Shown piece by piece: positions 1 to 30,620 of a stretch of DNA of 30,620 nt. Origin of the DNA: Rhizobium oryzihabitans (GTDB lineage: Bacteria > Pseudomonadota > Alphaproteobacteria > Rhizobiales > Rhizobiaceae); the NCBI RefSeq assembly GCF_010669145.1, contig NZ_CP048636.1:1-30620 (forward strand), given 5' to 3'. A program made the position numbers and the translations under genes. Position 1 is the first letter of the stretch. Each line of letters begins with the position of its first letter. The notes under the pieces are model-generated. The model was given only the letters and a program-made list of their open reading frames with translations. It did not search any database and was not told the origin of the DNA.

Positions 1-395
1 CCGGTCAGCCGAAGCAGCGGAATGCCGGCCACCAGGGCAGCGAGAGCTCCGGCGCCACCGGCGAGCAGGCTCGCGGAAAAGACATCGAGTTGAGTCGCTT
101 GAATAACGTCCGGCAGATCATGCAGGCGCATCTTCTTTCATCATCGGCGCGATTGTCAGCCAAGCGGAGACATAGGCACCAATCGCCATGAAGCTCATAT
201 GGCCGAAGGAGATCACGCCGGTATTGCCGATGAATATAAACAGGCCTACCACCACTATGAGCTTGATGAGCCAGTCGGTCACGGTGCGATCGAACGATCC
301 AGGACTCAAAAATGTCAGTGCCACAGTGCCACCAAGATCAGGACAAGCGGCGCCACTTCGCGCAGCATGGTATTGAGGGTGCGTAGCAGGCTCAT
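1..395 (-). pseudogene. livM: livM 5' part, branched-chain-type ABC permease, frameshifted, continues across the ends
   Basis: This is the N-terminal part of the second inner-membrane permease of a LivFGHM-type ABC importer. The ATG at 395-393 shares one base with the livH stop. The first 26 codons (MSLLRTLN...) run into a stop near 321. Restoring one base there (TGG to TGGG) joins the frame reading VALTFLSPGSFDRTVTDWL and the membrane segment IVVVGLFIFIGNTGVISFGH. A second shift lies near 127-136; after it the frame reads RLHDLPDVIQATQLDVFSAS through to LVAGIPLLRLTG at position 1. The last codon is split (GG) and is completed by the T at 30620, so the gene continues in the 29948-30620 feature. 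The whole gene would be about 1068 bp. Whether the shifts are real decay or sequencing errors cannot be told from the sequence. Confidence 0.85.
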
Positions 396-1275
396 CAGAC
401 GCGCTCCTTGGCCCAGGGCAGGATGATGATGCCACGGGGCCGCACGAGTAGAAGGGCAAACAGAACCGAGTAGAGGACGGCGTCTCGGAACGGGCGTAGT
501 TCAGGCGGTAGCGCCATTTCGATCAGAACGGTCAGGCTTCCGATTACGAAGCCGCCGATCGCCGCGCCGGCGAGGCTGCCCAGGCGCCGATGACGGTGGC
601 CACGAAGCCGACTACGGCAGGTTGAAGGCCGAGTTGCGGTGTGAGCGCTCCGATCTGGGCCACATAGAGAAGCGAAACAACACCAGCCAGCAGGCCGCTA
701 CGGCAAAAGCCACCGCGATGATGCGGTTGGCCTTGACACCCAAAAGACGGCCATGCGGAAATTTTCCGCAGCGGCGCGCATCTGGATGCCGTAGCGGCTG
801 TATTTCAAAAAGGAGGCGAGGGCGACGAGCAGTAGCAGCGTGGTCACAATCATGACGATCTGTAGGTAAGATACAGTGATCTTGCCGAAGCTGACGCTCT
901 GCAGCAGTGACGATCCGAAATTGACGCCGCGAGGCGTGGCGCGATCGTCATCAGGACGAGGTTCTGCAGCAGAAAGCTGACGGTGAAGGACCCGATCAGC
1001 AAGGTCGGGGTGCTGCGCTGTCGGAGCGGCCGGAACGCACAGCGTTCCATCACAAGGGCGACCAGAACGACCAGTGCGATCACCAGCACTGCTGCGATGG
1101 CGTCCGGCGCGCCGGATAGCAGCAGCAGGCCGTAGCCTCCGATCATCACCAATTCGCCATGCGCGAAGTTGACCAGTCGCATGATGCCGAAGACAAGGCC
1201 AATGCCGAGCGCCATCAGGGCGAACAGGCTGCCCATACTTATGGCGTCGACGAGGCTTTGGACGAGGTTCTCCAT
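395..1275 (-). pseudogene. livH: livH, branched-chain-type ABC permease, four frameshifts
   Basis: First inner-membrane permease of the importer. It starts at 1275, sharing one base with the livF stop. The N-terminus (MENLVQSLVDAISMGSLFAL) and the LivH signature region FGIMRLVNFAHGELVMIGGY are clear. The frame breaks near 933-938, 742-746, 693-697 and 584-588. At each point adding one base restores a LivH-like sequence: RGVNFGSSLLQSVSFGKI, then LLGVKANRIIAVAFAVAG, then LLAGVVSLLYVAQIGAL, then GGLGSLAGAAIGGFVIGS, ending in RPRGIIILPWAKERV. Corrected length is about 294 residues, normal for LivH. The consistent loss of single bases in short runs suggests either poor sequence quality here or a genuinely decaying gene. 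As written it would give only a truncated 141-residue product. Confidence 0.88.
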
Positions 1276-1994
1276 CAGATGGCCTCCACCGTGAGATTGC
1301 CGAAATAGGCTTCGCGGAAATTCGGATCGTCGCGCAGCTGCGCCGACGGTCCGGACAGGACGACCGAGCCCGTCGAAAGCACGAAGGTGCGGTTGGAAAC
1401 GGAGAGCGCGCGCTCCGCGTTCTGTTCGACGACGAGGATCGACAATCCTTTCTGCCGAAGCAGGGTAATGGCGTCGTAGACGCGATCGATTACGACGGGA
1501 GCCAGGCCGAGCGAGGGCTCGTCGAGCAGCAGCAGTCGCGGCAGCGACATCAAAGCGCGACCGATGGCAAGCTGTTGCTGTTCGCCGCCGGAAAGCTTGC
1601 CTGCACTGCCGTGCAGGCGCTCTTTCAGGATCGGGAAGAGCTCGAATACCTCGTCGAGGCGGCGCTCGAAGTCGGCCCGGGCCCGTGGTAGTGTGCTGCC
1701 AAGCGAAAGATTTTCCCGCACGGTGAGCGACGAAAAAATACCGCGATCCTCTGGCACTAGGCTGAGACCGCGTTCGGCGATCGCTTCCGGAGACAGGCCG
1801 GAGAGGGACTTTCCATCCAAGGTGATTTCGCCTTCCGAGCGGGTAATGCCCGTCAGGCTCAGCATCAGAGATGATTTTCCGGCTCCATTGGGCCCTACGA
1901 CGCTAACGATCTCGCCACGGCTAACGTCGAGCGAGATGCCCCGCAGTGCGACGATCGAGCCATATCGGACAAAAAGATTTCGGATTTCAAGCAT
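1275..1994 (-). CDS. livF: ABC transporter ATP-binding protein LivF
   Basis: Cytoplasmic ATPase subunit that drives the branched-chain-type importer. The protein has 239 residues, normal for LivF. Visible motifs are Walker A GPNGAGKSS near residue 34, the Q-loop region, the ABC signature LSGGEQQQLAIGRAL, Walker B LLLLDEPSLGLAP and the H-loop region LVVEQNAERAL. The ATG overlaps the end of livG and the stop overlaps the livH ATG, so translation is probably coupled. This is the only core transporter subunit besides the binding protein that is intact within the frameshift-rich 1-2800 region. The LivF assignment, rather than LivG, rests on the short length and position after livG. Confidence 0.95.
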   Translation of the reverse strand: MLEIRNLFVRYGSIVALRGISLDVSRGEIVSVVGPNGAGKSSLMLSLTGITRSEGEITLDGKSLSGLSPEAIAERGLSLVPEDRGIFSSLTVRENLSLGSTLPRARADFERRLDEVFELFPILKERLHGSAGKLSGGEQQQLAIGRALMSLPRLLLLDEPSLGLAPVVIDRVYDAITLLRQKGLSILVVEQNAERALSVSNRTFVLSTGSVVLSGPSAQLRDDPNFREAYFGNLTVEAI

Positions 1995-2783
1995 GATCTT
2001 TCGAAACGCTCCGTCCCAAATATGCTTCCGTCACGACGACATTTGCACGGATGTCGGCCGCGGAGCCCTCTGCGATCGTCTGACCGCGTGCCAGTACTTG
2101 AATTCGATCGCACAGTTTCATGATCAGCCGGATATTGTGCTCAATGATCACCACCCCGCAGCCGATGCGATCGCGTACATTCAGGATGATCTTCACCAGA
2201 TCATCGGCCTCGCCCATGGTGAGACCAGCCGCCGGCTCGTCGAGAAGCAGAAAGCGCGGCTGCATAGCGAAGGCGCGTGCGATGCCGACGCGCCGCTCGA
2301 TACCGTAGGGCAGCGCCGTCACGGCGACATCGGCGACCGAAGCGAGGTCGAGCCACTGCATGATGGCGTTCGCCTGCTCGCGTGCGTCCTTGCGGGATGC
2401 CCCATCGATACGGCGCCGACCTCGATATTTTCGGAGACCGACAGCCCTTGGAACAGGCGGACTGACTGGAAACTACGTACTACGCCGTGACGGCTGATCC
2501 AGTTACTCGGGCGCCTGTCGATCCGGGTGTCTCCGAGCCAGACCTCGCCGGATGTTGGGCGCTGAAACCCTGACAGGACGTTGACGAGGGTCGTCTTGCC
2601 GGCGCCATTGGGCCCGATGAGCCCGACGATCTCGTTCGGCGCGGCCTCGAAATCGACGGCGGTGACAGCGGCGAGTCCGCCGAAGCGGACATCGATGTTG
2701 TGGCAGCGAAGGGAGCCACTTTTATGCCTCCGCGACACGACAGCTGACCCAGATGTCGTAGACATTGCTAAAGTTTCCGACAT
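1987..2783 (-). pseudogene. livG: livG, ABC transporter ATP-binding protein, one frameshift
   Basis: Second ATPase subunit of the importer. The chosen ATG (2783-2781) is preceded by AGGAAC and lies just after the stop of the binding-protein gene. The first frame holds Walker A GPNGAGKTT and the Q-loop segment VVRSFQSVRLFQGLSV. It breaks at a C run on the plus strand at 2400-2403. The second frame continues with ASRKDAREQANAIMQWLDL, the signature-like LPYGIERRVGIARA, Walker B LLLDEPAAGL and VVIIEHN. Adding one G on the coding strand restores a protein of about 265 residues. The 3' end overlaps livF. As written, the product would lack the signature motif and Walker B and would not work as an ATPase. 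Confidence 0.9.
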
Positions 2784-2791
2784 GGCCGTTC

Positions 2792-3979
2792 CTATTTGAA
2801 TGGGTTCGGAACGCTGGTGGGCACCTGCCATTCGACGGCCTTGTGTTTGCCGTCCTCTACTTTCATGATCAACTGACCACGGTCGTAGTTGATGTGACGG
2901 TCCTTGGTGAAGGTGGTCTGGCCGACCAGCAGCGGTTCGGCCTGGAATTTCTCCAATTCGGCCACGACGGCGTCAGCGTTGAGCGACTTGGCGCGTTCGA
3001 CGGCCAGTGCATAGGCCTGGATGACGCTGTAGCCTGTCAGGGCCTGCGAGGAGATCGGCTTTGTGCCGAACTTAGCCGTGTATTTGTCGACAAATTCGCG
3101 GACCTTAGGGTTTGGATCGTCCCCGAACAGCGAGCCGTAGGCACCATACTGGAAGTTCGACAACTTGGGCACGGATTCGAGCCAATTGTCGCCATCCATC
3201 GAGTCAGAAGCGAGGATCTGTGTCTCTACTCCAGCCGAGCGGATCTGACGCAGCATGGCGACAGCGCCGCCTCCGGCCGAGCAGAACATCACGAAATCAG
3301 GCTGCTTTGGTAGGTTCTTGAGCCGGCTGATCTGTGCCGGGTAGGACATGTCGTTGCCATTGAACGTGTCCGAACCGATGATTGAGTCGGTTCCGGCAAG
3401 CTCCGTCCATACCTTTGTGAAGCTGCTGCAGACAGACTTATTGTAGTCGAGCATGGTGTCAAGCATTACATAGGCTGTCCGCCAGCCGGCCTTCTTGAAG
3501 GCCCATTCGGCGGATAGCGCGCCGAGGCCGGGCGTGGCGGTCGCCATCGAGAAGGCGTAAGGGCCGATAGCAAAAGCGTCGAACTTCGGATCCGCGGCAC
3601 AGGTGCCAAACGATACGACCTTCTGCGCATTTGCTGTCAGCGCGGCCGGTGCGCCGTAGTCGAAATCGCAAGACGCGATCACAAGTTGGGCACCTTGGGC
3701 CAGTACTTCAGAGGCGGCGCGAGCGCTGCCGGCAGGGTCCGTCTTGCTGTCGGAGACGACCAGGGACAGGGGGCGACCTAGAACACCACCCTTGGCGTTG
3801 ATCTCTTCGATCGCGAGTTGGGCGGCGTTAAGTGGGCCTTCGTCGTACTGGACCATCCAGCCGCTACGGGCGACGGCCGCGCCGACGACGATCGAATCCG
3901 CCGCCGACGCGGATGCCGCCGAGGCGATTGTTCCACTGGCTAGCGCGACAGCGAGCACATTTCGTCCGAAGTTCTTCAT
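2792..3979 (-). CDS. periplasmic substrate-binding protein of the liv-type importer
   Basis: Periplasmic receptor (Leu/Ile/Val- or amide-type, type I periplasmic-binding fold) that would deliver substrate to the LivHM pore. The start at 3979 is chosen because it is preceded by GGGAGAAC and opens a signal peptide, MKNFGRNVLAVALASGTIA with cleavage near SASAA/D; an in-frame start at 4075 would add an unlikely leader. Mature features include VVGAAVARSGWMVQYDEGP, AQLAIEEINAKGG and LVVSDSKTDP, typical of the family. The length is 395 residues. It is the first gene of the minus-strand operon. The linked hydantoinase and carbamoylases suggest the ligand is a hydantoin, N-carbamoyl amino acid or related ureide rather than leucine; this is inference. 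Confidence 0.92.
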   Translation of the reverse strand: MKNFGRNVLAVALASGTIASAASASAADSIVVGAAVARSGWMVQYDEGPLNAAQLAIEEINAKGGVLGRPLSLVVSDSKTDPAGSARAASEVLAQGAQLVIASCDFDYGAPAALTANAQKVVSFGTCAADPKFDAFAIGPYAFSMATATPGLGALSAEWAFKKAGWRTAYVMLDTMLDYNKSVCSSFTKVWTELAGTDSIIGSDTFNGNDMSYPAQISRLKNLPKQPDFVMFCSAGGGAVAMLRQIRSAGVETQILASDSMDGDNWLESVPKLSNFQYGAYGSLFGDDPNPKVREFVDKYTAKFGTKPISSQALTGYSVIQAYALAVERAKSLNADAVVAELEKFQAEPLLVGQTTFTKDRHINYDRGQLIMKVEDGKHKAVEWQVPTSVPNPFK

Positions 3980-4121
3980 CAAGTTCTCCCTCTTTTTCTT
4001 GGTTTCCCCGTCCCATGTGAAACACATAGCATCAGGTACAGTGCTTAAAAAAACAAATGTTTCGTCATTAGTCAACGATGATGAATATGTTTCTTTGATC
4101 GCGACCGTGCGTGCCTGTTGA
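3980..4121 (-). promoter_or_regulatory. candidate promoter/operator region of the liv-hydantoin operon
   Basis: This is the leader of the first operon gene. On the minus strand it contains TTGACT, which resembles a -35 box, followed by an A/T-rich stretch with no clear -10 match. The plus-strand segment 4051-4062 (AAACAAATGTTT) is a 5-bp-arm inverted repeat. A related AAACGTTT palindrome occurs at 28792-28799, upstream of the RpiR-type regulator. These could be binding sites for that regulator, but with only two loosely similar sites this is a guess. Confidence 0.3.
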
Positions 4122-4189
4122 TTATGGGATGGCGCGTCCTTCGAAAGACATCGAGTATGATGATCCGCGATTGAAGGAGGAGCCGGTCC

Positions 4190-4238
4190 ATGACGATTTC
4201 AATTTTGGGTATCGATATAGGCAACAATAGCTGCATCC
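4190..4238 (+). pseudogene. IS110-family transposase, 5' remnant
   Basis: A strong ribosome site (GAAGGAGGAG) precedes ATG at 4190. The reading frame begins MTISILGIDIGNNSCIP, which resembles the DEDD-type N-terminus of IS110-family transposases (GIDI.KN.C). The match stops near 4233-4240, where the DNA becomes a tnpA fragment on the other strand. Only about 16 codons are left, so this is a scar of an insertion or rearrangement. The family call is from motif memory on a short stretch. Confidence 0.5.
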
Positions 4239-4239
4239 C

Positions 4240-4433
4240 AGTCCACCAGCCAAAGCCCGGTGAGTGATGCGGATACCGCGCTGGATCGCCACATAAAGGA
4301 TGGATTCAAGCGCTGATCGCGTCGGCGTGAGAATTCTTCGACGCCGCAATTCCTCCGCCACCCTGTCTGCCAATTTATCTTTCTGGCGTAAGGTCAAGGC
4401 CACCGGCGTCAGCCAACAGGCCGGCGCCCTCAC
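4240..4433 (-). pseudogene. Tn3-family transposase tnpA, internal fragment
   Basis: The minus strand reads CWLTPVALTLRQ, DKLADRVAEELRRRRI and YVAIQRGIRITHRALAGGL. This corresponds to the region around residues 130-190 of Tn3-family TnpA proteins, where the ELRRRRI.P motif is conserved. It has neither end of the gene. One side stops at the IS110-like remnant; the other abuts the Tn5393-like terminus at 4461. An older tnpA was probably interrupted here and then eroded. Confidence 0.65.
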
Positions 4434-4460
4434 ATTTGAAGGAGAAAATGGCCGAATCTA

Positions 4461-4575
4461 GGGGTATTTGCGGGAGGGGGCGCAATCCTACGCTAAGGCT
4501 TTGGCCAACAATATTCACCGGTGAGGTTGATGTGTTCCCATCCGTGGGGAGAGATGTGGGCCAGAAGATCGGCCC
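4461..4575 (-). repeat. Tn5393-like terminal inverted repeat with the 3' end of its tnpA
   Basis: The sequence opens with GGGGTATTTGCGGGAGGGGG at 4461 and contains CCTACGCTAAGGCTTTGGCC near 4487. This resembles the unusually long (about 81 bp) Tn5393-type end as remembered. On the minus strand the same DNA codes LLAHISPHGWEHINLTGEYCWPKP, the conserved TnpA C-terminus, stopping at 4493. The rest of that tnpA and the opposite terminus are not found in the window, so this is a single orphan end. The 97-residue ORF containing it (4493-4786) has unrelated upstream sequence and is not a real gene. Confidence 0.65.
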
Positions 4576-4678
4576 CTGTCCTGGACCAATGCTGCCTTGG
4601 AGTTCTCTTATCTAAAGGCGAGCGTTCTGGCGCGAGGTAATCGTGATTTCCAGATTGCAGCCTTCGGCTTAGCTTGGT

Positions 4679-4753
4679 GTCGCGAAAGTCCCGAGTTTCG
4701 TTCGATTTGATCTCCTGGATTTCGCGTTGTTGCAAAATATCGATTTTCGCGAC
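4679..4753. promoter_or_regulatory. candidate res site of the adjacent resolvase
   Basis: A perfect 9-bp inverted repeat, GTCGCGAAA at 4679-4687 and TTTCGCGAC at 4745-4753, lies just upstream of the serine resolvase gene. Serine resolvases recombine at res sites built from such inverted half-sites next to their own gene. Only one pair was found by eye, so the full subsite structure is not established. Confidence 0.4.
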
Positions 4754-4802
4754 GGATTCCACGCGATAGATTCCGGCCAATGCCACAGGAACGGAAGCCG
4801 TC

Positions 4803-5360
4803 TTGCTAATTGGATATGCCCGCGTTTCGACCGATGATCAGACTTTGGACCAGCAGCGCGCGGCGCTGAAGGCGATAGGCTGCAAACGGATCTTTGAAGA
4901 AAAAGTGTCAGGCGCTAAGCGTGATCGGCCGCAGCTCGCTGCATTGGTCAACCAGCTCCGCGACGGCGATGTTGTTGTTGTCACTCGATTAGACCGCCTT
5001 GCACGATCCACACGCGACCTTCTCGATATTGCCGAGCAGCTGGAAGCTGCCAAGGCAGGGTTGCGCTCATTGGCTGAACCATGGGCCGACACCACGTCGC
5101 CGGCCGGCCGCATGGTGTTGACGATCTTCGCAGGCATTGCCGAGTTTGAGCGATCCTTGATCCATGATCGTACCAGCACTGGGCGAGCTGCTGCGAAGGC
5201 GAAGGGCGTTAGGTTCGGCCGCCCCCCTGCCCTATCCGTGGAGCAGGTCAACGTCGCCCGTAATCTTGTCAATGAAGGGCAGTCACCGCGTAACGTCGCT
5301 AAAATGCTAAGAGTGCATCCGGCCACGCTCTATCGTCATCTGGCTGAAATTGCGTCGTAG
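4803..5360 (+). CDS. serine resolvase/invertase family recombinase
   Basis: Site-specific recombinase that resolves cointegrates or plasmid dimers. The protein has 185 residues. It shows the resolvase catalytic domain: LIGYARVSTDDQTLDQQ, where the S of RVS is the nucleophile; GDVVVVTRLDRLARSTRDLL; and AGIAEFERSLIHDRTSTGRAAAKAKGVRFGRP. A C-terminal helix-turn-helix follows (SPRNVAKMLRVHPATLYRHL). The start is TTG at 4803, preceded by GGAACGGAAG; no ATG gives the conserved N-terminus. It may be the tnpR of the Tn5393-like remnant next to it, or a plasmid multimer-resolution protein retained after the transposon decayed. Confidence 0.9.
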   Translation: MLIGYARVSTDDQTLDQQRAALKAIGCKRIFEEKVSGAKRDRPQLAALVNQLRDGDVVVVTRLDRLARSTRDLLDIAEQLEAAKAGLRSLAEPWADTTSPAGRMVLTIFAGIAEFERSLIHDRTSTGRAAAKAKGVRFGRPPALSVEQVNVARNLVNEGQSPRNVAKMLRVHPATLYRHLAEIAS

Positions 5361-5732: not shown

Positions 5733-5736
5733 CGAA

Positions 5737-5859: not shown

Positions 5860-5926
5860 TCGGGACGATGAATCTTTGTCCGCTGTCCACAGTCGTGCCC
5901 GCCTGAAAAAGGAGGCGGAAAGGACC

Positions 5927-6636
5927 ATGTTTGAACAGATTGGGGCGGTGCTCGAAAGAGCACCAGCCGAGCGGGAACGCACGCCCGTTCGGCGGCAAAG
6001 CCGTGCGCGCGGACGATGCGAGGGCGTATTCTGGCGACGGACGAACCGACAGGACGTGCGCACGATTGTGCTGGCGGCACGACGTTATGAACTGGCAGGC
6101 CGTCAACCAGGTGCTCGCAATGGACCCTTAGGAGGCGTGGCGATCGAGCTGCTGGAGCTGTTCGCCAATCTCGTTGATTTCCGTACCGGTCGGCTGGAAC
6201 CGTCGATCGACACGCTCATGCTGAAGCTCAGGCGCTCGCGTGACGCGATCGTGCGGGCGTTGAAGAACCTGCGTGCCCATGGCTTCCTCGACTGGCTGCG
6301 GCGCTATCAGCCGACAGGCAACGAGGGGCGCGGCCCCCAGGTCCAGCAAACCAGCAATGCCTATCGCATGTCCCTGCCCGATCGTGCGCGGCAGCTCCTC
6401 GGACGTTGGGGCCCCCCCCTCCGCTTCCAGACGATCATGTTCAGGCCGAAGCAGAACGCGTCGCTGACATCGAGGCGCATCGGATATCGCTCGATATTGA
6501 AGCCCGAACTCTGTTCGATGTTGGCGATAACCCCTTGGGCCAGGCGCTTGCTCGCCTTGGAAAGGCAATCAATCTACGTGAGTCCGCCAGACAGACTGAA
6601 TCCCTACCTGGTTCTATAAATAATAGAAAAGAATAA
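5927..6636 (+). CDS. repA: plasmid replication initiator RepA (frameshift in a C run)
   Basis: This would initiate plasmid replication. The ATG at 5927 follows GGAAAGGACC; a TTG-initiated extension from 5876 is less likely. The core reads ARNGPLGGVAIELLELFANL, VDFRTGRLEPSIDTLMLKL, then the helix-turn-helix SRDAIVRALKNLRAHGFLDW and GNEGRGPQVQQTSNAYRMSLP. This fits RepA-like proteins on rhizobial and sphingomonad plasmids as remembered. At the C8 run 6412-6419 the frame changes: the first frame continues to 6619 with unlikely sequence. The other frame ends at 6636 and gives PLPDDHVQAEAERVADIEA and DVGDNPLGQALARLGKA, then ends LPGSINNRKE, the expected C-terminus. One missing C explains it. Since the plasmid must replicate, a sequencing error or tolerated slippage is more likely than a dead gene. 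Confidence 0.8.
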
Positions 6637-6915: not shown

Positions 6916-7587
6916 ATGCCAGTCATTTCATTCGTGTCGAGCAAAGGCGGAGTCGGCAAAACGACATCTGCTGTTGTGCTTGCTGGCGAGTTCGCAGCGG
7001 CTGGCCGCAGAGTGGTCTTGATCGACGCCGACCCGAACCGTCCGCTCGAAGCCTGGGCCCGCCTGAAAGGCACGCCGGACACCGTGCGGCTTATGATTGA
7101 TGATTCCGCTGAGACCATAATCGATACGATCGAGGAGGCCCGGGCAAATGCTGATTTTGTTATCGTTGACCTGGAAGGCACGGCAACTGACCGAATTGGT
7201 TTTGCGATTGCCCGCTCGGATCTCGTTTTAATCCCGCTCCAAAGCTCTGTGCTCGATGCATCGGAGGCCGCTAAATCCGTAAAACTGGTTCACCAGATGA
7301 GGAAGGTCGCCAACCGCGATATTCCTTACAGGGTGTTCTTTACACGTGTCCCGCCAGCTATTCGCGAGCGAACCGCTCGCGACATCGATCGACAATTTTC
7401 CGACGCGGCAATACCGGTCCTACCTGCAACTCTGATCGACCGCGCCGCTTACCGGGCACTTTTCTCCCTCGGCGGAATACTTCGTGATCTGGAAGCGTCC
7501 GACGTGTCGGGATTGCAGAGTGCCAAGGAAAATAGCCGCGAATTTGCCCAGGCTGTTATCAACGCTTTGAGAGGAGAGGGAGCATGA
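6916..7587 (+). CDS. parA: ParA-family partition ATPase
   Basis: Cytoplasmic P-loop ATPase that segregates the plasmid by binding the nucleoid. The protein has 223 residues, the short (type Ib-like) form without an N-terminal DNA-binding domain. The deviant Walker A motif KGGVGKTT lies at residues 10-17, followed by LIDADPNRPLEAW near 35 and the Walker B-like DFVIVDLEGTA. DLVLIPLQSSVLDASEA is the usual switch region. A GGAG site precedes the ATG. The stop overlaps the start of the next gene (ATGA), so the two are translationally coupled. The repeat-rich leader upstream is the likely control and partition site. Confidence 0.93.
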   Translation: MPVISFVSSKGGVGKTTSAVVLAGEFAAAGRRVVLIDADPNRPLEAWARLKGTPDTVRLMIDDSAETIIDTIEEARANADFVIVDLEGTATDRIGFAIARSDLVLIPLQSSVLDASEAAKSVKLVHQMRKVANRDIPYRVFFTRVPPAIRERTARDIDRQFSDAAIPVLPATLIDRAAYRALFSLGGILRDLEASDVSGLQSAKENSREFAQAVINALRGEGA

Positions 7588-7922
7588 GCACTGAAGATAA
7601 GAAGCGTGCGACCCTCGATTTTGGAGGTCTGGACAACACGCCAGCGCCGCCAGTCGATAATAATGCAGTTAAGGCCGCGACTAGAGCCGCAGGATTTAGA
7701 GAAACACCGAAGGCTGCCAGTTCCGAAGCTGCTCCCACCATTCGGGCGATGCGTAGAACGCGCCGGAAAACGGGACGTACAGAGCAATTCGCAACGCGCC
7801 TTCGCGCAGAGACTATCGAAGCGATCTACAACTATGCGGATCATCATGAGATCACGCTGGCAGAAACGATTGAGCGAGCAATTGAAGCTCTCGAGGGGCG
7901 GAATGAAGCTCTTGAAGGGTAA
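7584..7922 (+). CDS. small DNA-binding partner of ParA (ParB-like, RHH type)
   Basis: A protein of 112 residues whose ATG overlaps the parA stop. The first half is low-complexity and basic (APPVDNNAVKAATRAAG, AMRRTRRKTGRTEQ). The C-terminal part, FATRLRAETIEAIYNYADHHEITLAETIERAIEAL, has the strand-helix-helix pattern of ribbon-helix-helix proteins. In short-ParA systems the second gene encodes such a centromere-binding protein, so its position makes this the likely partner. No direct homologue was recognised; the role is inferred from coupling and fold. Confidence 0.7.
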   Translation: MSTEDKKRATLDFGGLDNTPAPPVDNNAVKAATRAAGFRETPKAASSEAAPTIRAMRRTRRKTGRTEQFATRLRAETIEAIYNYADHHEITLAETIERAIEALEGRNEALEG

Positions 7923-7958: not shown

Positions 7959-8333
7959 GTGAGAGTTTTCAAAAACGGTTGGTTTCAGAAATTTGCCCGA
8001 AAGGAGAAAATCTCTGACGCCATGCTTTGTGAGGCTATTGCGCGCGCCGAACGCGGTCAGATTGATGCCGATTTGGGTTCTGGTCTCATCAAGCAGAGGC
8101 TTGCTCGGCCTGGTGCGGGAAAGTCCGGTGGATTCCGGACGTTGGTTTTCTTCCGGACGCAGCAGAGGGCTGTTTTTGCATTTGGCTTTGCCAAGAGCAA
8201 CATGGCCAATCTTGATGATGCCGATGAGGCTTATCTGAAAAAGGCCGCGAAGCTGGTTCTAGGATTTTCAGATGAGCAGATAGACGCGGAAATCGCTGCG
8301 GGGCGTATGTCAGAGGTGAAATGCGATGAGTAA
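7959..8333 (+). CDS. RelE/HigB-type toxin of a toxin-antitoxin pair
   Basis: A protein of 124 residues from a GTG start preceded by AAGGA. The sequence VFKNGWFQKFARKEKISDAML, IKQRLARPGAGKSGGFRTLVFFR and RAVFAFGFAKSN matches the RelE-like fold family in which toxin precedes antitoxin (HigB-like arrangement). These are usually ribosome-dependent mRNA interferases. The gene overlaps the downstream helix-turn-helix gene by 8 bp. It lies directly after the par genes on the same strand, so it probably adds post-segregational killing to plasmid maintenance. Catalytic residues were not assigned. Confidence 0.85.
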   Translation: MRVFKNGWFQKFARKEKISDAMLCEAIARAERGQIDADLGSGLIKQRLARPGAGKSGGFRTLVFFRTQQRAVFAFGFAKSNMANLDDADEAYLKKAAKLVLGFSDEQIDAEIAAGRMSEVKCDE

Positions 8334-8643
8334 GACCTACAAAAGTGAGGCATTGGCAGCCGTCCACGAGATGATGGAAGGTTTCTACGAGTCCGGAGCG
8401 ATCGACAAAAAGACGATGCGCGAATTTGATGAAGGCTGCCTGACAACCGTGGCCTCCCTGACTCCGGAAGAAATCCGTTCGATCCGTGAGCGCGAAAGCA
8501 TTTCCCAGCCCGTGTTTGCCCGTTACCTCAATGTCAGTAAAGGCCTGGTTTCTGATTGGGAACGCGGTGTGAAGCGGCCGAGTGGTCCGGCGCTACGATT
8601 GTTGACCGTCGTGCGCAATAAAGGACTGCAGGCCATCGCTTGA
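8326..8643 (+). CDS. HigA-type XRE antitoxin
   Basis: Antitoxin and repressor partner of the overlapping toxin gene. It has 105 residues. The N-terminal half (SEALAAVHEMMEGFYESGAIDKKTMREFD) would bind toxin. The C-terminal half has a Cro/CI-type helix-turn-helix, LTPEEIRSIRERESISQPVFARYLNVSKGLVSDWERGVKRPSGPALRLL. The ATG lies inside the end of the toxin gene, so translation is coupled. The complex would be expected to repress its own promoter upstream of 7959, where no clear operator was picked out. Confidence 0.9.
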   Translation: MSKTYKSEALAAVHEMMEGFYESGAIDKKTMREFDEGCLTTVASLTPEEIRSIRERESISQPVFARYLNVSKGLVSDWERGVKRPSGPALRLLTVVRNKGLQAIA

Positions 8644-9300: not shown

Positions 9301-9338
9301 AGTGTTGAATCTGTCCGACTTTTGAGAACGTATGGTGA

Positions 9339-15663: not shown

Positions 15664-15665
15664 AC

Positions 15666-16271: not shown

Positions 16272-16287
16272 CGAGTGACCGTGGCTG

Positions 16288-20280: not shown

Positions 20281-20315
20281 GCTTGTTAATCTCCTCGGCA
20301 CTCGGAGGATGCCGT

Positions 20316-23300: not shown

Positions 23301-23861
23301 ATGTCAGGCTTTGAGCAGGCCGTTGATCGCTATGCGCAGGCCTATAGCTCCGTCGATCGTCAGCTCAGCCAGGATCTACCTGTCCTCGATGCACAGAAGC
23401 AGGCCTATCGTACAGCGGCAGCCGACATGGACCAGGTGCGGCCGGGATCGCATGCGCTGGTCCGCTCGGCCATGCATTATGATCCACACACCGCCGATGC
23501 CATGACGCAGCTCTCCGGCCGCGAGCGTGTCGGTCAGCTGGTCTCCGGCATGGACAGGGAACGCGCCCTGCAGGCCGATCCGAATGTCCGGGCCGATCGG
23601 TTCATCGAGCGCTGGAATGAGCTTCGTTCCGAGCGTCAGGAGCTTCGGGGTTGGAACAATGACGAGGCGCGGGGTAAGGTCGATGCGGAAATGCGCGGGA
23701 TGAGCCAGCGCCTTGGCGGCGACCCGCAGCTTGAAACGACCCTGCGCAATCGCGCCCAGGAGATGGGGATCAGCTATATCGGTCGTGATCAGACCATAAG
23801 CCACGAGATGGAGCGGCAGCTGACCCAGGGCCGCAGCCAGAGCATGGGGCTTGAACGATAG
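20316..23861 (+). CDS. traA: TraA, MOBQ-family conjugative relaxase with helicase domain
   Basis: Nicks oriT, stays covalently bound to the 5' end and unwinds the strand for transfer. The TTG at 20316 is chosen because GGAGG lies 7 bases upstream and it gives AIYHLSAKPISRSSGRSAVA with the candidate catalytic tyrosine at residue 25. The metal-binding motif HEKGDVRNYHAHVLMTTR lies near residues 135-155. A RecD/TraI-like helicase follows: Walker A GFAGAGKST near 405, VIDEAGMVGSRQL near 472, LVGDHEQLQAIG, TTIHKNQGATVDRAF near 722 and LTYVAMTRHRDGA. The C-terminal 350 residues are charged and less conserved. About 1181 residues, somewhat longer than Ti-plasmid TraA. No frameshift despite its length. 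Confidence 0.95.
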   Translation: MAIYHLSAKPISRSSGRSAVASAAYRSAVKLTNERDGLVHDFTRKEGVQHTEIVLPEPGAGATGSAEWALDRSALWNAAEFAEKRKDARVAREFEVGLPHELSAEGRIEATRTFAQDLANRYGAAVDFAIHAPHEKGDVRNYHAHVLMTTRQVGEGGLGEKTYLEHKNARLLSNGMATTDMQLRDIRQSWESIANSQLQREGLDIRIDHRSHQERGLELSPTEHVGVHATQMQRQGMGVERARLDAEAAQKNADLIREKPEQVLTIISQEKSVFDRRDVARALHRYINDDAQTFQNAFASVMASPGLAELQPERIDPQTGEIELAKYSTREMVNLESGMARSAERMADDRSHGVDRRHVVGAIGRQDAAIQKASGDGAARLSDEQRQAIEHVTGPERISAVVGFAGAGKSTMLAAAREAWEAQGYRVHGAALSGKAAEGLEESSGIESRTLASWSHGWERDRGTLSRGDVFVIDEAGMVGSRQLSGFIGEAEKRGAKIVLVGDHEQLQAIGAGAPFRAIAERIGHAELSEIRRQHEGWQREASVSFATHKTADGLAAYRDHGDVHFAADGDAARAAIVQDYLADREDRPDGSRVAMAHRRVDVRAINDAIRSGLQERGELARVAPGGAGVDELSIGKGRGEERPRALTYQTNDGKRDFAEGDRIVFLENDRDLGVKNGMLGKVLSVEQDAIQVQLDGRTADRSDIINVPVNSYQAIDHGYATTIHKNQGATVDRAFVLASGTMDRHLTYVAMTRHRDGAQLYADSQEFTDKRAGRLVAHGVAPYEHKAGNRDSYFVTLENANGERSTTWGVDLGRAMAEASPEIGATIGLRHEGAVPVTLPDGTQTHRNGWRVQDVAELAYDQLESRLSRSGAKETTLDYARDFAERRGIAEAIGVRSEIDLGDAAIKGHEAPSLAGSTAGAVQDRSHSERSAYEERTPSQADPERMERAPRRGMFDGLKLKSGRGAAQAERPARDGERREDRGERDRLAERVRPMSGFEQAVDRYAQAYSSVDRQLSQDLPVLDAQKQAYRTAAADMDQVRPGSHALVRSAMHYDPHTADAMTQLSGRERVGQLVSGMDRERALQADPNVRADRFIERWNELRSERQELRGWNNDEARGKVDAEMRGMSQRLGGDPQLETTLRNRAQEMGISYIGRDQTISHEMERQLTQGRSQSMGLER

Positions 23862-23875: not shown

Positions 23876-24649
23876 ATGACGGACGATGATCGCAATCACC
23901 ATCCCGAGGACATGGAGCCAGCAGCGTTCCACGACGAGGATGATGCCGGCGATCCGGCCGCTGCGTTCGAGGCCCTGCGCGATACGGTCGAGGATCTGGC
24001 CGCCGATCTCGGCCGGGAAATGACGACGATCCGCAAGGGCGTCGAGTCCGCCTTCGATCAGCTGGAGCGGCAGGGGGCGGTGGTCGATTATAGCGCCGAG
24101 CTTGGCCGCATGACCCAGCAGCTCGCCATAGTGGGCGAGCACCTGCAGGCGATCCATCAGGCGCCGGTTCTCCGGCAGGGGGCCGAGCATTATGCCCGTG
24201 TTCTCGAGCGCAGCGGGGATGGGCTGGTTCGGTCTGCTGTGCAAAAGCTCGAGCAGCAGTCCTCCGATCTCGAGCGCATCAGCAGTGTGCTCGCCTCGCA
24301 CACTAAAAGCGCTCTGTATCGGAAGGATCAGGATTTCCGGATGTGGATGATGGCCGGCATTGGCGTCGTTGTCGGCGCTTTCCTTCTGGTAGTAGTGCCA
24401 AGGTTTCTTCCGTTCTCTGTCGATAGCCGTGTTGCCGCGCTGGTGATGGGCGGCGATCGCGTCAGCGCCGGCCGCGCCATGATCCAGGCAGCCGATCCGC
24501 AGGGAGGGCGGGACTTTGTGACGGCCGGGTGGGTTTATGACACAAACCGGGAGGCGCTGGATAAGTGCATTTCGGATATGTTCAAGACGCAGAAGGAGCA
24601 ACGCTGCGGGCTGACATTGCCTGTCGTGCAGAGTTCTGGCCACCCTTAG
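23876..24649 (+). CDS. single-pass membrane protein downstream of traA (DUF6118-like)
   Basis: A protein of 257 residues with an AAGGACGAG site before the ATG and only 14 bp after traA. The acidic N-terminus (EDMEPAAFHDEDDAGDPAAA) is followed by long amphipathic helices (FEALRDTVEDLAADLGREMT, VQKLEQQSSDLERISSVLAS) likely to form a coiled coil. A single membrane helix lies near residues 157-176 (MMAGIGVVVGAFLLVVV), followed by a roughly 80-residue C-terminal domain ending in CGLTLPVVQSSGHP. Proteins of this layout, labelled DUF6118, commonly follow traA on alphaproteobacterial plasmids; that label is from memory. The function is unknown; it may help transfer at the membrane. Confidence 0.75.
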   Translation: MTDDDRNHHPEDMEPAAFHDEDDAGDPAAAFEALRDTVEDLAADLGREMTTIRKGVESAFDQLERQGAVVDYSAELGRMTQQLAIVGEHLQAIHQAPVLRQGAEHYARVLERSGDGLVRSAVQKLEQQSSDLERISSVLASHTKSALYRKDQDFRMWMMAGIGVVVGAFLLVVVPRFLPFSVDSRVAALVMGGDRVSAGRAMIQAADPQGGRDFVTAGWVYDTNREALDKCISDMFKTQKEQRCGLTLPVVQSSGHP

Positions 24650-25102: not shown

Positions 25103-26560
25103 TCAGACGCCGATTGGCATGTGCTCGGGCGAACGGTTCACCGCGCGAGGCGCCGTGATCTCCTTCCACTTCGACAATGCTGCGTTGACAGCCGGGAATG
25201 GCTTGCGTTTTATTAGCTTGCCGCGGCCGGGCTGCGCCTGCGAGTTCTGGCCGTCAGCCCAGACGACCTCGCCCCGCGAGATCGTATAGCGTGGCAGGCC
25301 GCGCACCTCGACGCCCTCGAACACGTTGTAGTCGATGATCGACTTCTGGTTGGCAGCAGAGATTGTCTTGGAAAGCTTCGGATCCCAGACGACAAGGTCG
25401 GCGTCTGATCCCGGCAGGATTGCGCCTTTCTGCGGATAGATATTGAGGATTTGGGCGATGTTGGTTGAGGTTACCGCAACGAACTCATTGGCCGTCAATC
25501 GTCCCGTCTCTACGCCCTTTGTCCAGAGCACGGAGAGCCTGTCTTCAACGCCTCCAGTGCCGTTCGGGATCTTGGCGAAATTACCGAGGCCGAAACGCTT
25601 TTGCTCGGTGGTGAAGGCGCAATGGTCGGTGGCAACCACCTGCAGTGAGCCGGCGGCGAGACCGGCCCAGAGACCGTCTTGGTGGCTCTTATCGCGGAAT
25701 GGAGGCGACATCACGCGCTGTGCGGCATAATCCCAGCTTTGGTTGAAATATTCGCTCTCATCCAGGGTCAAATGCTGGATCAGCGGCTCGCCATAGACGC
25801 GCATCCCTTTCTGGCGGGCCCGGCGGATAGCCTCATGCGCCTGTTCGCTGGATGCGTGCACGATGTAGACCGGTACGCCGGCGGCGTCGGCGATCATGAT
25901 GGCGCGGTTGGTCGCCTCACCCTCGACCTCGGGTGGTCTTGAGAAGGCGTGACCCTCTGGACCCGTGGTTCCCTCTCCGAGCAGCTTCTGCTGCAGGGAG
26001 GCGATGATGTCGCCGTTTTCGGCATGGACAAGGGGCAGCGCACCGAGCGCTGCACAGCGCTGGAAAGACGCAAACATCTCGTCGTCATTCACCATCAGGG
26101 CGCCCTTGTAGGCCATGAAGTGTTTGAAGGTGTTGATGCCAAGATCGACGATCTTGGCCATCTCGTCAAAATGCGTCTCCGACCAGCCGGTGACGCACAT
26201 GTGGTAGGAATAGTCACACGAGGTTTGGTGCGCAGCGCGGCTTTCCCATTCGGCTAGCGCCGCCAGCATGCCGGACTCGCCCGGGATGACGAAGTCAAGC
26301 ACGGTCGTCGTACCACCAGAAAGGGCGGCGAAGGAGCCAGTTTCCCAAGTCTCGGCTGCCGTGGTGCCCATGAACGGCATTTCGAAATGTGTATGTGGGT
26401 CGATGCCGCCCGGCATTATATAGGCGTCAGTGGCGTCGATAACCGTGTCGCCGGAAAGATCCGGCGCGATCGCCTGGATGGTCTCTCCCTCGATGCGGAT
26501 ATCCGCCTTGTATGTACGGTCGGCGGCGATGATCGTTCCGCCCTTGATCACAGTAGACAT
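25103..26560 (-). CDS. hydA: D-hydantoinase/dihydropyrimidinase
   Basis: Cytoplasmic amidohydrolase that opens 5-substituted hydantoins (or dihydropyrimidines) to N-carbamoyl amino acids. The protein has 485 residues, normal for the family. The metal ligands are visible: DPHTHF with H56 and H58, the lysine that is carbamylated in FKHFMAYKG (K152), H179 in PLVHAENGD, the histidine in VYIVHASSEQ and the aspartate in VATDHCAFT. The ending, ...KLIKRKPFPAVN, is typical. The ATG follows GAGGAACG. It is the last gene of the block, 41 bp after the L-carbamoylase. No dihydropyrimidine dehydrogenase is present, so hydantoin use is favoured over reductive pyrimidine breakdown. Confidence 0.95.
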   Translation of the reverse strand: MSTVIKGGTIIAADRTYKADIRIEGETIQAIAPDLSGDTVIDATDAYIMPGGIDPHTHFEMPFMGTTAAETWETGSFAALSGGTTTVLDFVIPGESGMLAALAEWESRAAHQTSCDYSYHMCVTGWSETHFDEMAKIVDLGINTFKHFMAYKGALMVNDDEMFASFQRCAALGALPLVHAENGDIIASLQQKLLGEGTTGPEGHAFSRPPEVEGEATNRAIMIADAAGVPVYIVHASSEQAHEAIRRARQKGMRVYGEPLIQHLTLDESEYFNQSWDYAAQRVMSPPFRDKSHQDGLWAGLAAGSLQVVATDHCAFTTEQKRFGLGNFAKIPNGTGGVEDRLSVLWTKGVETGRLTANEFVAVTSTNIAQILNIYPQKGAILPGSDADLVVWDPKLSKTISAANQKSIIDYNVFEGVEVRGLPRYTISRGEVVWADGQNSQAQPGRGKLIKRKPFPAVNAALSKWKEITAPRAVNRSPEHMPIGV

Positions 26561-26601
26561 CTATCGTTCCTCATTATGTTGGGTAGGTGGCTTTCGGTGG
26601 G

Positions 26602-27852
26602 TCATCCGTCGAAACCGGCTGTTTCCAAGGCGGCGCGCAGGAGCACATTTGCTCCATTGGCCGCCCATTCGCAGTTGATCGCCTCGTCTTCGTTATGGCT
26701 TAGCCCGTCGACGCAGGGGCAGAAGATCATGGCCGTCGGTGCGATCCGGTTGATCCAGCAGGCGTCATGGCCAGCTCCCGAGATAATGTCGCGATGGGTG
26801 TGGCCCTGAGACGTCGCCGCGGCACGGATGCGCTGCAGCAAATCGGTGTCAAAGGCGACCGGCCCAAATTCGCCCACGGTTTCAACTTCGAAGCCGAGGC
26901 CAAGCTCAGTGGCAATCCGCTCGACGCCGCCGCGAAAGCGCATCTCCATGTCGGCGAGGACAGAGCCTTCGGGGTGTCGGAAGTCGACGGTCAGGACGGC
27001 CTTGCCGGGTACAACATTGCGGGAGTTCGGCTGCTGGGACAGCTGACCGACGACACCGACGCCGTTTGGCTCGTGGCTCCAGGCAATTTCCTCGACCAAC
27101 TCGACGATGCGCGCGGCGCCCAGCCCGGCGTTCCGCCGCCTTGACATCGGGGTCGAGCCGGCATGCGCCTCCTGCCCGGTGAGTGTTGCTTGCAGCCATT
27201 TCAGGCCTTGGCCATGGGTAACGACACCGATGTCGATACCCTCATCTTCGAGGATCGGACCCTGCTCGATATGGAGCTCGAGATAGGCGTATGGGCGGTG
27301 TCCACCCGCGGGATCGGTGCCCAGGAAACCGATACGGGCCAGTTCGTCGCCCATCCGCAGCCCGTCGACGTCCGTGCGCGAATAGGCCCACTCGACGCTA
27401 TGTACGCCGGCGAAGACGCCGGAGCCCAACATGACCGGTGCGAATCGGCTGCCTTCCTCATTGGTCCAGTTGACAATTTCTATCGGCCGGGACGTGCGGA
27501 TATCGTGCTCGTTGAGGGTACGGATGATTTCCAGTCCGGCGAGCACGCCCAGCACGCCGTCGTAGCGCCCGCCGGTCGGTTGAGTGTCCAGATGGCTGCC
27601 AATCATGACTGGAAGCGCCTCGGGATCCGTTCCTTCGCGCCGTGCGAACATGTTGCCGACAGCATCGACGCTGACCGTGCAGCCGGCCGCCTCGCACAAT
27701 GTTTGGAAAAGCAGGCGGCCGTCGCGATCTGCGTCGGTCAGCGTCTGCCGGTTGTTGCCGCCGCGGAGGCCCGGGCCGATTTCAGCCATGGCAGCGAGGC
27801 TCTCCCAGAGGCGGTTCGGATTTACGCGGAGGTTGTCGGCACTGCTTGCCAT
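26602..27852 (-). CDS. hyuC: N-carbamoyl-L-amino acid hydrolase (M20-type amidase)
   Basis: Zinc/manganese-dependent amidohydrolase converting N-carbamoyl-L-amino acids to L-amino acids, CO2 and ammonia. The protein has 416 residues. The M20 family motifs are GSHLDTQPTGGRYDGVLGVL (ligands H87 and D98), NWTNEEGSRF with E132/E133, ELHIEQGPILE, GQEAHAGSTPM, SGAGHDACWINR and GLSHNEDE near the end. The ATG at 27852 follows AAGGAC. Beta-ureidopropionase and allantoate amidohydrolase share these motifs, so the exact substrate is inferred from the adjacent hydantoinase and D-carbamoylase. It lies 43 bp after the regulator gene. Confidence 0.9.
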   Translation of the reverse strand: MASSADNLRVNPNRLWESLAAMAEIGPGLRGGNNRQTLTDADRDGRLLFQTLCEAAGCTVSVDAVGNMFARREGTDPEALPVMIGSHLDTQPTGGRYDGVLGVLAGLEIIRTLNEHDIRTSRPIEIVNWTNEEGSRFAPVMLGSGVFAGVHSVEWAYSRTDVDGLRMGDELARIGFLGTDPAGGHRPYAYLELHIEQGPILEDEGIDIGVVTHGQGLKWLQATLTGQEAHAGSTPMSRRRNAGLGAARIVELVEEIAWSHEPNGVGVVGQLSQQPNSRNVVPGKAVLTVDFRHPEGSVLADMEMRFRGGVERIATELGLGFEVETVGEFGPVAFDTDLLQRIRAAATSQGHTHRDIISGAGHDACWINRIAPTAMIFCPCVDGLSHNEDEAINCEWAANGANVLLRAALETAGFDG

Positions 27853-27895
27853 CGAAAGTTGTCCTTGTCGCGGGTGCGCGCCGCTAGTTGTGCCT

Positions 27896-28759
27896 TCAGC
27901 GCTTGCTGTGACTGAAAGCGTCGAGTTCGTCGTGCAGTTCGTCGATCCGGTTCAGGCGGTCGATGCCCGCCTGCCCGAGATGAAGCGCCAGCGAGGTCCC
28001 AAGAAAGTTCAGCACGCTGAGCGCCGCGGTGTAGGAATCGTAAAGGTAGGGACCATGACTGTGGCAACGGAATACGACGTCCGCGAGTTTGGCTGTCCGC
28101 GAGGCGCTGATGTCGGTGACATAAACGGTTTTGACGCCGATGCTCTGGGCCTTGCTCATCACGGCTCGCAAGGCCATAGGCCGCCGCCTGAAGCCGATGA
28201 TCAGCATGCCGTCCCCGGGTTTCATGTTAAGAACTTCTTCGGCGAAGCTCAGACCGCCGACCGGAATAAGGCGGACATCCTCGCGCAGCATGTTGAGGAT
28301 GAAGCGCGCATAGTGGGCCAGTCCGAAGCTGTTGCGCAGCCCTAGGATCCAGATCGTCGGCCCCCGCGCCAGAATATCGAGCGATTGCTCGATCTGATCC
28401 GCACCAATGCGCTCAAATGTCTTGCGAAGATTGTCTTGATCAGTCGTGAGATGCTCTTCGACGTTCGGTGCGACCTTGGCCTCACCGCGCGCCTCGAGCT
28501 GTTTGAGCGGAGAGCCCCAATGATTAACGTTGCGGGCAATTCGGCGGGCCTCTTCAAAGCTCCGATAGCCGAGTCGTTTGAAAAGGCGCGCCGCTGTTGC
28601 TTTGGATACCTTTGCTTGTTGCGCCAGCTCCGTGGCGGTGTATCCGATAAAATCGCTACGCTGGTCCATAATGAGATCCGCCAAGGCGCGCTCGCCTGGC
28701 GGAATCTCCTCGTAAATGGCCAGTATTCGCTTTTCGATCGACTTGTCCGCATCAACCAT
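27896..28759 (-). CDS. MurR/RpiR-family transcriptional regulator
   Basis: A DNA-binding regulator with an N-terminal RpiR helix-turn-helix (KSIEKRILAIYEEIPPGERA, then YTATELAQQAKVSKATAARLFKRLGYRSF) and a C-terminal SIS sugar-isomerase-type ligand domain (GPTIWILGLRNSFGLAHYAR and GDGMLIIGFRRRPMALRAVM). Length is 287 residues from the ATG at 28759; a TTG codon just before it gives an extra residue. It is embedded between the two carbamoylase genes, so it probably controls this block. RpiR proteins often sense phosphosugars, but relatives in catabolic clusters of this type respond to the pathway substrate; the effector here is unknown. Confidence 0.92.
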   Translation of the reverse strand: MVDADKSIEKRILAIYEEIPPGERALADLIMDQRSDFIGYTATELAQQAKVSKATAARLFKRLGYRSFEEARRIARNVNHWGSPLKQLEARGEAKVAPNVEEHLTTDQDNLRKTFERIGADQIEQSLDILARGPTIWILGLRNSFGLAHYARFILNMLREDVRLIPVGGLSFAEEVLNMKPGDGMLIIGFRRRPMALRAVMSKAQSIGVKTVYVTDISASRTAKLADVVFRCHSHGPYLYDSYTAALSVLNFLGTSLALHLGQAGIDRLNRIDELHDELDAFSHSKR

Positions 28760-28791
28760 CAAGTCAATTTCCCCTTAATTCGCGCCAGACA

Positions 28792-28799
28792 AAACGTTT
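28792..28799. promoter_or_regulatory. AAACGTTT palindrome upstream of the regulator gene
   Basis: An 8-bp perfect palindrome 33 bases upstream of the regulator start, loosely similar to AAACAAATGTTT at 4051-4062 before the first operon gene. It might be a regulator site, but it is short and could be chance. Confidence 0.2.
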
Positions 28800-28851
28800 A
28801 CCGGCACGTCTGCCGAAGCTGTTACAATCTCGACGCTGGCCCGTCGGCCGG

Positions 28852-29811
28852 TCAGCCGAGGGAGACTTCGTCTGCGAGAGGCGGCGGCATGGCGCCCTTC
28901 CGCTCGACGATCAACTTGTATGATTCGGGCTCGCGATGACGCGCAAAATCGAAGATTGTTTCGCGATAGCGCTTGCCGATGTCGAGATCAGCCTTCGCGG
29001 TGATTACTTCGTCGCCGATCGAGGAGGCCATGGAGACGATCTCTCCGGAGGGGGAAACGATCACGCTTTGCGCCAGCATCTTGGAGCCTTCCTCGGTTCC
29101 GCACTTCGCGGTACCAACGACCCAGGTGGCGTTCTGATAGGCGCCTGCCTGCATCGACAGATGATTGTGGAAACTCGTGAGCGCGTCGATGTCGTCATGG
29201 CCGGTGTGGTCGAAGGGTGTGTTGTAGCCCAGCAATACCATCTCGACTCCCTGGAGACCCATCACGCGATAGGTCTCGGGCCAGCGGCGATCGTTGCAAA
29301 GGCACATGCCCATGACACCACCGAAGCCGCGCCAGACCGGGAAGCCGGTGTTTCCTCGCTCGAAATAGCGCTTTTCGAGGTGCTGGTGCTGCCGTCCGGC
29401 CTGGGGCTCGGAATGCCCCGGCAAATGGACCTTGCGATACTTGCCGATGATGACGCCGCGGCGGTCAACAAGGATCGACGTGTTGAATTTTCGGAGCCGA
29501 CCGTCTTCCTGGGCGAGTTCCGCATAGCCGAGATAGAAGCCGATCTCAAGCCGATGGGCCTCGTCGAACAGCGCCTGTGTCTCGGGACCTGGCATCGCCC
29601 GTTCGTAGTACTGGGTGAGCTCGGCCTCGTTGTCGATCAACCAGCGCGGAAAGAAAGTGGTGAGGGCGAGCTCCGGGAACACTACCAGTTCCGCACCGCG
29701 CGCCTTGGCTTCGCGCATCAACGCGATCAGGCGGGCGACGACCTGGGTACGGGTCTCTGACTTGGCGATCGGGCCCATCTGGGCGGCAGCAACATTGACA
29801 AAGCGTGTCAT
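28852..29811 (-). CDS. N-carbamoyl-D-amino acid hydrolase (nitrilase superfamily)
   Basis: Hydrolyses N-carbamoyl-D-amino acids to D-amino acids, CO2 and ammonia. The ATG at 29811 is chosen because it gives the family N-terminus MTRFVNVAAAQMGPIAKSET and follows AAGGACC; the frame opens 30 codons earlier with an unlikely leader. Length is 319 residues, close to the 304 of the Agrobacterium enzyme. The nitrilase triad is complete: E47 in VFPELALTTFFPRW, K127 in KYRKVHLPGH and C172 in MCLCNDRRWPE. HLEKRYFERGNTGFPV and LTSFHNHLSMQAGAYQNATW are also characteristic of the D-carbamoylase. It lies between livM and the regulator on the same strand. Confidence 0.95.
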   Translation of the reverse strand: MTRFVNVAAAQMGPIAKSETRTQVVARLIALMREAKARGAELVVFPELALTTFFPRWLIDNEAELTQYYERAMPGPETQALFDEAHRLEIGFYLGYAELAQEDGRLRKFNTSILVDRRGVIIGKYRKVHLPGHSEPQAGRQHQHLEKRYFERGNTGFPVWRGFGGVMGMCLCNDRRWPETYRVMGLQGVEMVLLGYNTPFDHTGHDDIDALTSFHNHLSMQAGAYQNATWVVGTAKCGTEEGSKMLAQSVIVSPSGEIVSMASSIGDEVITAKADLDIGKRYRETIFDFARHREPESYKLIVERKGAMPPPLADEVSLG

Positions 29812-29947
29812 TCGTCTGGTCCTTGCAATTGGTGCGCGAAGCAAAGGCGCGCGCGGGCTGAATGGATGCGCTCGGGTCGCGCACCGATGGTGGTGCGGCA
29901 TCCGATAGGATGTCGGTCAGGCCCCGCGGGGCCGGTGACTTGCGTTC

Positions 29948-30620
29948 TCATGCGTTGCGCTCGGCTGGGATGGCGGTCGTCAGCGGAGTGTCCGCTCCGG
30001 CTCTGGGGCGACGGAACATCAGATCGCGACCCCTCATGATGCCGCTCGGCCGGGCAATCAACACGCAGAGCATGATGACCGCCAGTCCGACTTCTGCAAG
30101 CCCTGGCATTTCGCCGACCGAAACGCCAGCAATGCTGAAGCCGCCTTCGAAACGCCGCAGGATCTCAAGCAGCAGCGACACTAGGAGGGTTCCGATCACT
30201 GCACCGCTCAGGCTCTCCATGCCACCCACGACCAGCATCGCCAGCGTGATGAAGGTCAGGTCGAGGAAGAAGGCGTTGGCCGAGAGAATACCGAGGAAGT
30301 GGCCGTAGAGGGAGCCACCGACTCCCATGACGAAACCGCTGACGACCAGGGCGATCAGACGCTGGCGATAGACGTTGACGCCAGAGGCCCGCGCAGCAAT
30401 CTCGTCGCCGCGCGACGCACGGATCATCAATCCGAGGCGGCTGCGGGTAAAGGCCCATGCGATAATCAGGGCGACGATTGACCACGCGCAGGCTACCAAA
30501 GGCGTCACGTAGACCGGCAGGCCAATCAGCGAGCCGCGCCCGCCGGTCAAGCCATCCCAGTTGCCGGCGATCGAGATCGTCACAATCAGTACGGCGAACG
30601 TGCCGATGCTGGCAGAGATA
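29948..30620 (-). CDS. livM: livM 3' part, branched-chain-type ABC permease, continues at position 395-1
   Basis: C-terminal two thirds of the LivM permease. From the window end the frame reads ISASIGTFAVLIVTISIAGN, then WDGLTGGRGSLIGLP. It then shows LGLMIRASRGDEIAARASGV, which is the conserved cytoplasmic loop that contacts the ATPases, the membrane segments ALVVSGFVMGVGGSLYGHFL and FLDLTFITLAMLVVGGMESL, and finally LIARPSGIMRGRDLMFRR. It is in frame with the fragment that ends at position 1, so the two are one gene on a circle. No frameshift is seen in this part. The stop is at 29948 and the next gene starts 136 bp downstream; that gap shows no gene. Confidence 0.93.
   Translation of the reverse strand, partial: ISASIGTFAVLIVTISIAGNWDGLTGGRGSLIGLPVYVTPLVACAWSIVALIIAWAFTRSRLGLMIRASRGDEIAARASGVNVYRQRLIALVVSGFVMGVGGSLYGHFLGILSANAFFLDLTFITLAMLVVGGMESLSGAVIGTLLVSLLLEILRRFEGGFSIAGVSVGEMPGLAEVGLAVIMLCVLIARPSGIMRGRDLMFRRPRAGADTPLTTAIPAERNA

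Follow-up and report, generated by a model that had tools for sequence, protein, structure and literature searches.

The window analyzed here, 30,620 bp long, is the whole of contig C5, with no part of the contig lying outside it, and it belongs to a genome of nine contigs and 5,858,741 bases (5.86 Mb). Its features are listed below, where the frames given as intact in L037 are those of a 14 kb contig from a Cypionkella MAG.

1..395, minus strand: 5' part of livM, its frame twice shifted by a single base between about 395 and 118; frame intact in L037 (362 aa).
400..1275 (lower bound approximate), minus strand: livH-like permease, with several frame shifts; frame intact in L037 (294 aa); named from gene order and liv context.
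1275..1994, minus strand: livF-like ATPase, intact (ABC_tran).
1987..2831, minus strand: livG-like ATPase, split over two frames by one single-base shift; frame intact in L037 (281 aa); named from gene order.
2792..4075, minus strand: livJ-like substrate-binding protein (Peripla_BP_6).
4122..5360: probable Tn3 transposase remnants (minus strand) and a serine recombinase gene (4803-5360, plus strand), from a Resolvase match and a short Tn3 transposase match.
5876..6619, plus strand: putative RepA-like replication gene, matched by plasmid records; frame shifted near residue 181.
6916..7587, plus strand: ParA-family partition ATPase, matched above cut-off by VirC1 and CbiA and by ParA_partition at a score under that model's curated cut-off.
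7584..7922, plus strand: stability/partitioning determinant, assigned from its position and its relatives in pC6.5e and X9 p.2.
7959..8643, plus strand: RelE-type toxin with a helix-turn-helix (HTH) antitoxin (PF06296, HTH_3).
9282..19290: three Tn3-family pieces; other contigs of the genome carry copies or close relatives of them.
20283..23861, plus strand: TraA relaxase/helicase (Ti type; MobQ), with TIGR02768 and NF041496 above cut-off.
23876..24649, plus strand: DUF6118 protein adjoining traA (PF19613), in a neighborhood like that in Sinorhizobium plasmids.
25103..26560, minus strand: D-hydantoinase/dihydropyrimidinase (TIGR02033 above cut-off).
26602..27852, minus strand: M20 amidase of the hydantoinase/carbamoylase family (TIGR01879 and NF006769 above cut-off).
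27896..28762, minus strand: RpiR-type regulator (HTH_6 and SIS).
28852..29901, minus strand: N-carbamoyl-D-amino-acid hydrolase, matching solved DCases (best 8i99, E 2.3e-123).
29948..30620, minus strand: 3' part of livM, an open frame that reaches the joint (the joined piece matches BPD_transp_2).

Read across the joint between positions 30620 and 1, the importer genes follow the order livM-H-F-G-J. One minus-strand codon is split by the joint, with two of its bases at positions 2-1 and the third at 30620. It reads G, giving RLT-G-ISASIGTF, with the frame open onward to 29948; on the start side the open stretch of the joined frame begins only at about position 118. The two contig ends, when compared, had no overlap in common. 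A sequence-only reading had described one livM frame running from 395 to 1 and resuming at 30620. Its placing of the gene and of a codon across the joint holds, but its single open frame from 395 does not, as this is interrupted by the two single-base shifts between about 395 and 118. The same reading took the joined protein for a continuous LivM core, which is borne out by a single BPD_transp_2 domain that crosses the joint near residue 44 and, within the 267 aa of the joined piece, covers residues 17-201 (E 2.7e-20).

Scanning genome contigs with the joined livM piece gave five related loci (L037, L038, L039, L040 and L041), the best being the Cypionkella contig L037. Against the window arranged as 25103..30620 followed by 1..4095, L037 yields one blastn match of 9,652 columns at 78.8% identity, with no gap at the joint. 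The linear window gives two matches, with inner ends that place window base 30619 on L037 5222 and window base 1 on L037 5220. Base 30620 therefore takes the single L037 base between these two, and nothing is missing or doubled at the joint. The earlier proposal of a closed circle cut inside livM thus agrees with the L037 DNA, which runs straight through. It had further been predicted that the joined LivM would align without a gap at the joint, and so it does in all four loci that reach this point (L037, L038, L039 and L041): the 41 columns around the joint are gapless and the G is kept. L040 covers residues 143-264 only and falls short of the joint. Identity of the joined protein through the joint is 87% to L037 and 48-50% to the three further loci, and in the plasmid collection the joined piece has 137 matching records, of which 55 cover 80% or more of it in one place, all at less than 60% identity. 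Such continuity would not be expected of unrelated contig ends. Position 1 looks like an arbitrary cut, and the position of the joint inside livM would thus have no biological meaning.

Joint-spanning frames were also scanned against Pfam for six of the nine contigs (C5, C1, C3, C6, C8 and C7, leaving out C2, C4 and C9), and among these a domain across the joint was found in C5 only. This failure says little about the circularity of the other contigs, because C9, which was outside that test, does close: its end-to-start sequence has one match across the joint with each of two circular plasmids, at 99.2% and 99.1%, with 12 and 15 mismatches in all. At least two circles of this assembly (C5 and C9) are cut at arbitrary places inside genes.

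Two further contigs have other relationships. Contig C7 (L014) matches, over 3557-20000, Shinella p2_Teo12, in which two protelomerase-family genes are annotated. The match includes stretches that are repeated and inverted, and C7 may be an element that is linear or has hairpin ends. Many single-base losses appear near the start of C7 in this comparison, which consists of several overlapping alignments and is hard to read. In contig C3 (L012, 16,358 bp), the 6,698 bases of 9661-16358 are 100% identical to p2_Teo12, the match stopping at the contig end inside a p2_Teo12 gene, and the remainder matches Agrobacterium plasmids that carry repC, so that a fragment or a chimera is possible in the case of C3.

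Compared with its relatives, the window has nine coding single-base shifts (eight losses and one gain), a count that leaves out intergenic gaps, gaps in that N-terminal part of the D-carbamoylase ORF which has no match, mutually compensating gaps (parA and traA), a multi-base gap in the stability gene, and gaps relative to Tn3 relatives at 81-83% in places where exact copies of the window sequence exist elsewhere. Six of the nine fall within the first 1 kb and one more within 2.4 kb; the remaining two are in rep near 6.4 kb and in the old Tn3 transposase near 10.4 kb. Open frames are found in all four hydantoin genes, in livF and livJ, and in traA and the young Tn3 transposase, and the stretches 11633-15480 and 15481-19290 are free of such errors when set against exact copies. 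Under an even spread, the probability of finding seven or more of nine in the first 2.4 kb is 5.7e-7, and that of all nine in the first 10.5 kb is 6.6e-5, figures for which the cut points were picked after seeing the data and the compared stretches cover part of the contig.

A similar pattern is seen in C9, which has no indels in the 0.9 kb aligned before its joint and, past the joint, 13 in 2.0 kb (or 12 in 2.1 kb), followed by nine single-base losses at 2.1-4.9 kb, five more up to 13.4 kb and none at 18.1-19.9 kb. At the far end of C9 (71.1-76.3 kb) there are four or five non-triplet indels relative to two relatives at 94%; as only one in each comparison is a loss and the rest are gains, losses do not crowd there. 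Consensus quality is poor on the start side in this assembly. It could be argued that livM, livH, livG and rep are real pseudogenes produced by gene decay, since the shifts stand in the deposited sequence and the liv frames of L037 are intact. This appears unlikely, as the shifts crowd towards position 1, whereas in the compared coding sequence at 11.6-30.6 kb the only gaps are compensating ones or ones that leave the window frame open. Moreover, the genes that are hit (livM, livH, livG, rep and the old Tn3 transposase) include mutually unrelated ones, and C9 has the same start-side crowding with few mismatches. For these reasons, sequence comparison makes it most likely that the broken livM, livH, livG and rep reflect consensus errors where the assembled contig begins rather than decay, perhaps caused by, for example, low coverage at the start of a draft contig.

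The plasmid backbone is made up of the RepA-like ORF, ParA, the stability gene, the RelE/HTH pair, the TraA/MobQ relaxase and the DUF6118 protein. The rep-like query is matched by 222 plasmid records, 12 of them over at least 80% of its length; the top matches are in two pieces and are annotated as helix-turn-helix protein or replication protein A, and the ORF itself has no Pfam or NCBIfam match. The stability determinant has no Pfam match either, and the multi-base gap relative to its relatives at its 3' end (about 7.9 kb) may be a further frame shift. TraA is assigned with scores of 1060.8 bits for TIGR02768 (cut-off 590.45) and 230.9 bits for the MobQ model NF041496 (cut-off 200).

Two circular plasmids are close relatives of this backbone: pC6.5e of Rhizobium rhizogenes (NZ_MK318990.1, 33,094 bp) and X9 p.2 of Rhizobium sp. 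(NZ_CP071314.1, 90,919 bp, typed MOBQ). Both share with the window the rep-like gene, ParA, the stability determinant and the RelE toxin in like order, and pC6.5e additionally has the HTH antitoxin and traA. DNA identity to pC6.5e is 83.8% over 3,308 columns (window 5472-8762) and 76.0% for window 20225-23035, and identity to X9 p.2 is 92.0% over 3,052 columns (window 5475-8517). The rep gene is annotated as open in both plasmids, whereas it is frame shifted in the window. One more relative of the backbone, pSR6, has a linear sequence on deposit. The cargo of pC6.5e and X9 p.2 differs from that of the window, and the stretch of pC6.5e with coupling protein and mobilization genes went unrecognized in the window, which has the Tn3 block in that place. 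Because no coupling protein or VirB-type channel genes were recognized among the 19 ORFs scanned against Pfam, and because Tn3 pieces stand where pC6.5e has its coupling and mobilization genes, the element seems more likely to be mobilizable than self-conjugative.

The window is thus very probably the complete sequence of a 30.6 kb circular plasmid from a rhizobial host, which the plasmid relatives suggest was probably Agrobacterium-like; the circle would have been cut at an arbitrary point within livM on output of the assembly. Of the two possibilities left by the sequence-only reading, a plasmid or a circularized excision product, the first is favored by the Rep-like, partition, toxin-antitoxin and relaxase genes together with the circular plasmid relatives. 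Replication would probably depend on the RepA-like protein, whose ORF is frame shifted as sequenced and outside curated families, and maintenance on ParA and the RelE-type pair. Mobilization would probably proceed by the plasmid's own TraA/MobQ relaxase, with help from the transfer system of another plasmid, since coupling protein and VirB genes went unrecognized among the scanned ORFs. The finding is right but ordinary: a small plasmid with a circular map that was opened at an arbitrary point.

The Tn3 block bears on a different reading, in which the circle would represent one loop from a larger plasmid, a segment between two direct copies of the block that was assembled as a circle by copy collapse. 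Pieces of 9282-19290 have copies or close relatives on C6, C9, C8 and C2, at about 100% identity on C6 and C9, and as the block is thus repeated on other contigs, the arrangement through it rests on the assembler. At its present edges the young Tn3 (15481-19290) has no perfect 5-bp target duplication, four of five bases being alike, which suggests recombination or an adjacent deletion and speaks for the loop. However, the unique part of the window has Rep-like, par, toxin-antitoxin and relaxase genes of its own, and its two close backbone relatives are circular plasmids, so that we consider the loop distinctly improbable. The inverted repeats of the young Tn3 are 45 nt long and 93% identical. 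Finally, that the circle is an excision product of a chromosomal or plasmid island is very improbable: the hydantoin-Liv genes do form a cargo unit, bordered on one side by probable Tn3 remnants, but the plasmid backbone is present, and a search for repeats of at least 24 nt found no flanking direct repeats, its one direct family being 27 nt at 74%.

For the plasmid itself, gene maps near position 1 should be read around the circle, and the shifts clustered there are not to be reported as pseudogenes without reads.

The cargo includes a putative D-specific hyu cluster, with genes for both D-hydantoinase and N-carbamoyl-D-amino-acid hydrolase (from TIGR02033 and the solved DCases, respectively); in the latter ORF, the match to the closest solved enzymes begins only after the first 30 or so residues. 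D-hydantoinase and D-carbamoylase occur together in hyu clusters of Alphaproteobacteria, as they do here, and one published account describes such pairs in Aminobacter, in Rhodobacter and on a Ketogulonicigenium plasmid (PMC3546935). To this pair the window adds the RpiR regulator, the M20 amidase and the Liv-type importer, in an order common to one Cypionkella MAG contig. All nine cargo genes are found in like order in that contig, L037 (Rhodobacterales), with intact frames and 78-92% protein identity in the six pairs compared, and part of the block (window 26325-30326) is found at 77% in L040 (Tabrizicola, Rhodobacterales). Our literature search found no paper joining hydantoinase, carbamoylase, Agrobacterium, plasmid and transposon, all five together.

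At one edge of the cargo, window 4080-5480 matches only four plasmid records, over 8-10% of its length, and the remnant region has a short match to Tn3 transposase genes in three of the four records found. At the other edge, 23800-25120, 53 records match, the ten listed doing so only over traA-DUF6118. In the family set, 44 of 297 genomes, including the genome under study, have D-carbamoylase relatives (E <= 1e-60), with a best other identity of 79%. Some part of 24600-30620 is matched in 36 of the 39 genomes of the genus set, again including its own. One match covers parts of the hydantoinase and the M20 amidase in 24 of these (66-68%), the two genes match separately in 11, with the genome's own C1 among them, and one genome matches only over a short liv stretch. 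As they are matched jointly in 24 and separately in 11, the hydantoinase-amidase pair is usual in the genus, and the plasmid copy, with its D-carbamoylase and Liv genes, is a second set.

We tentatively suggest, with somewhat less than even confidence, that the hydantoin-to-D-amino-acid island on this mobilizable plasmid is complete, has a Liv-type importer dedicated to it and moved between bacterial orders. From its gene neighborhood, the importer would probably take up the hydantoin substrate or amino acids. Enzymes for the D-amino-acid (hydantoinase) process could plausibly be drawn from this mobile cargo.
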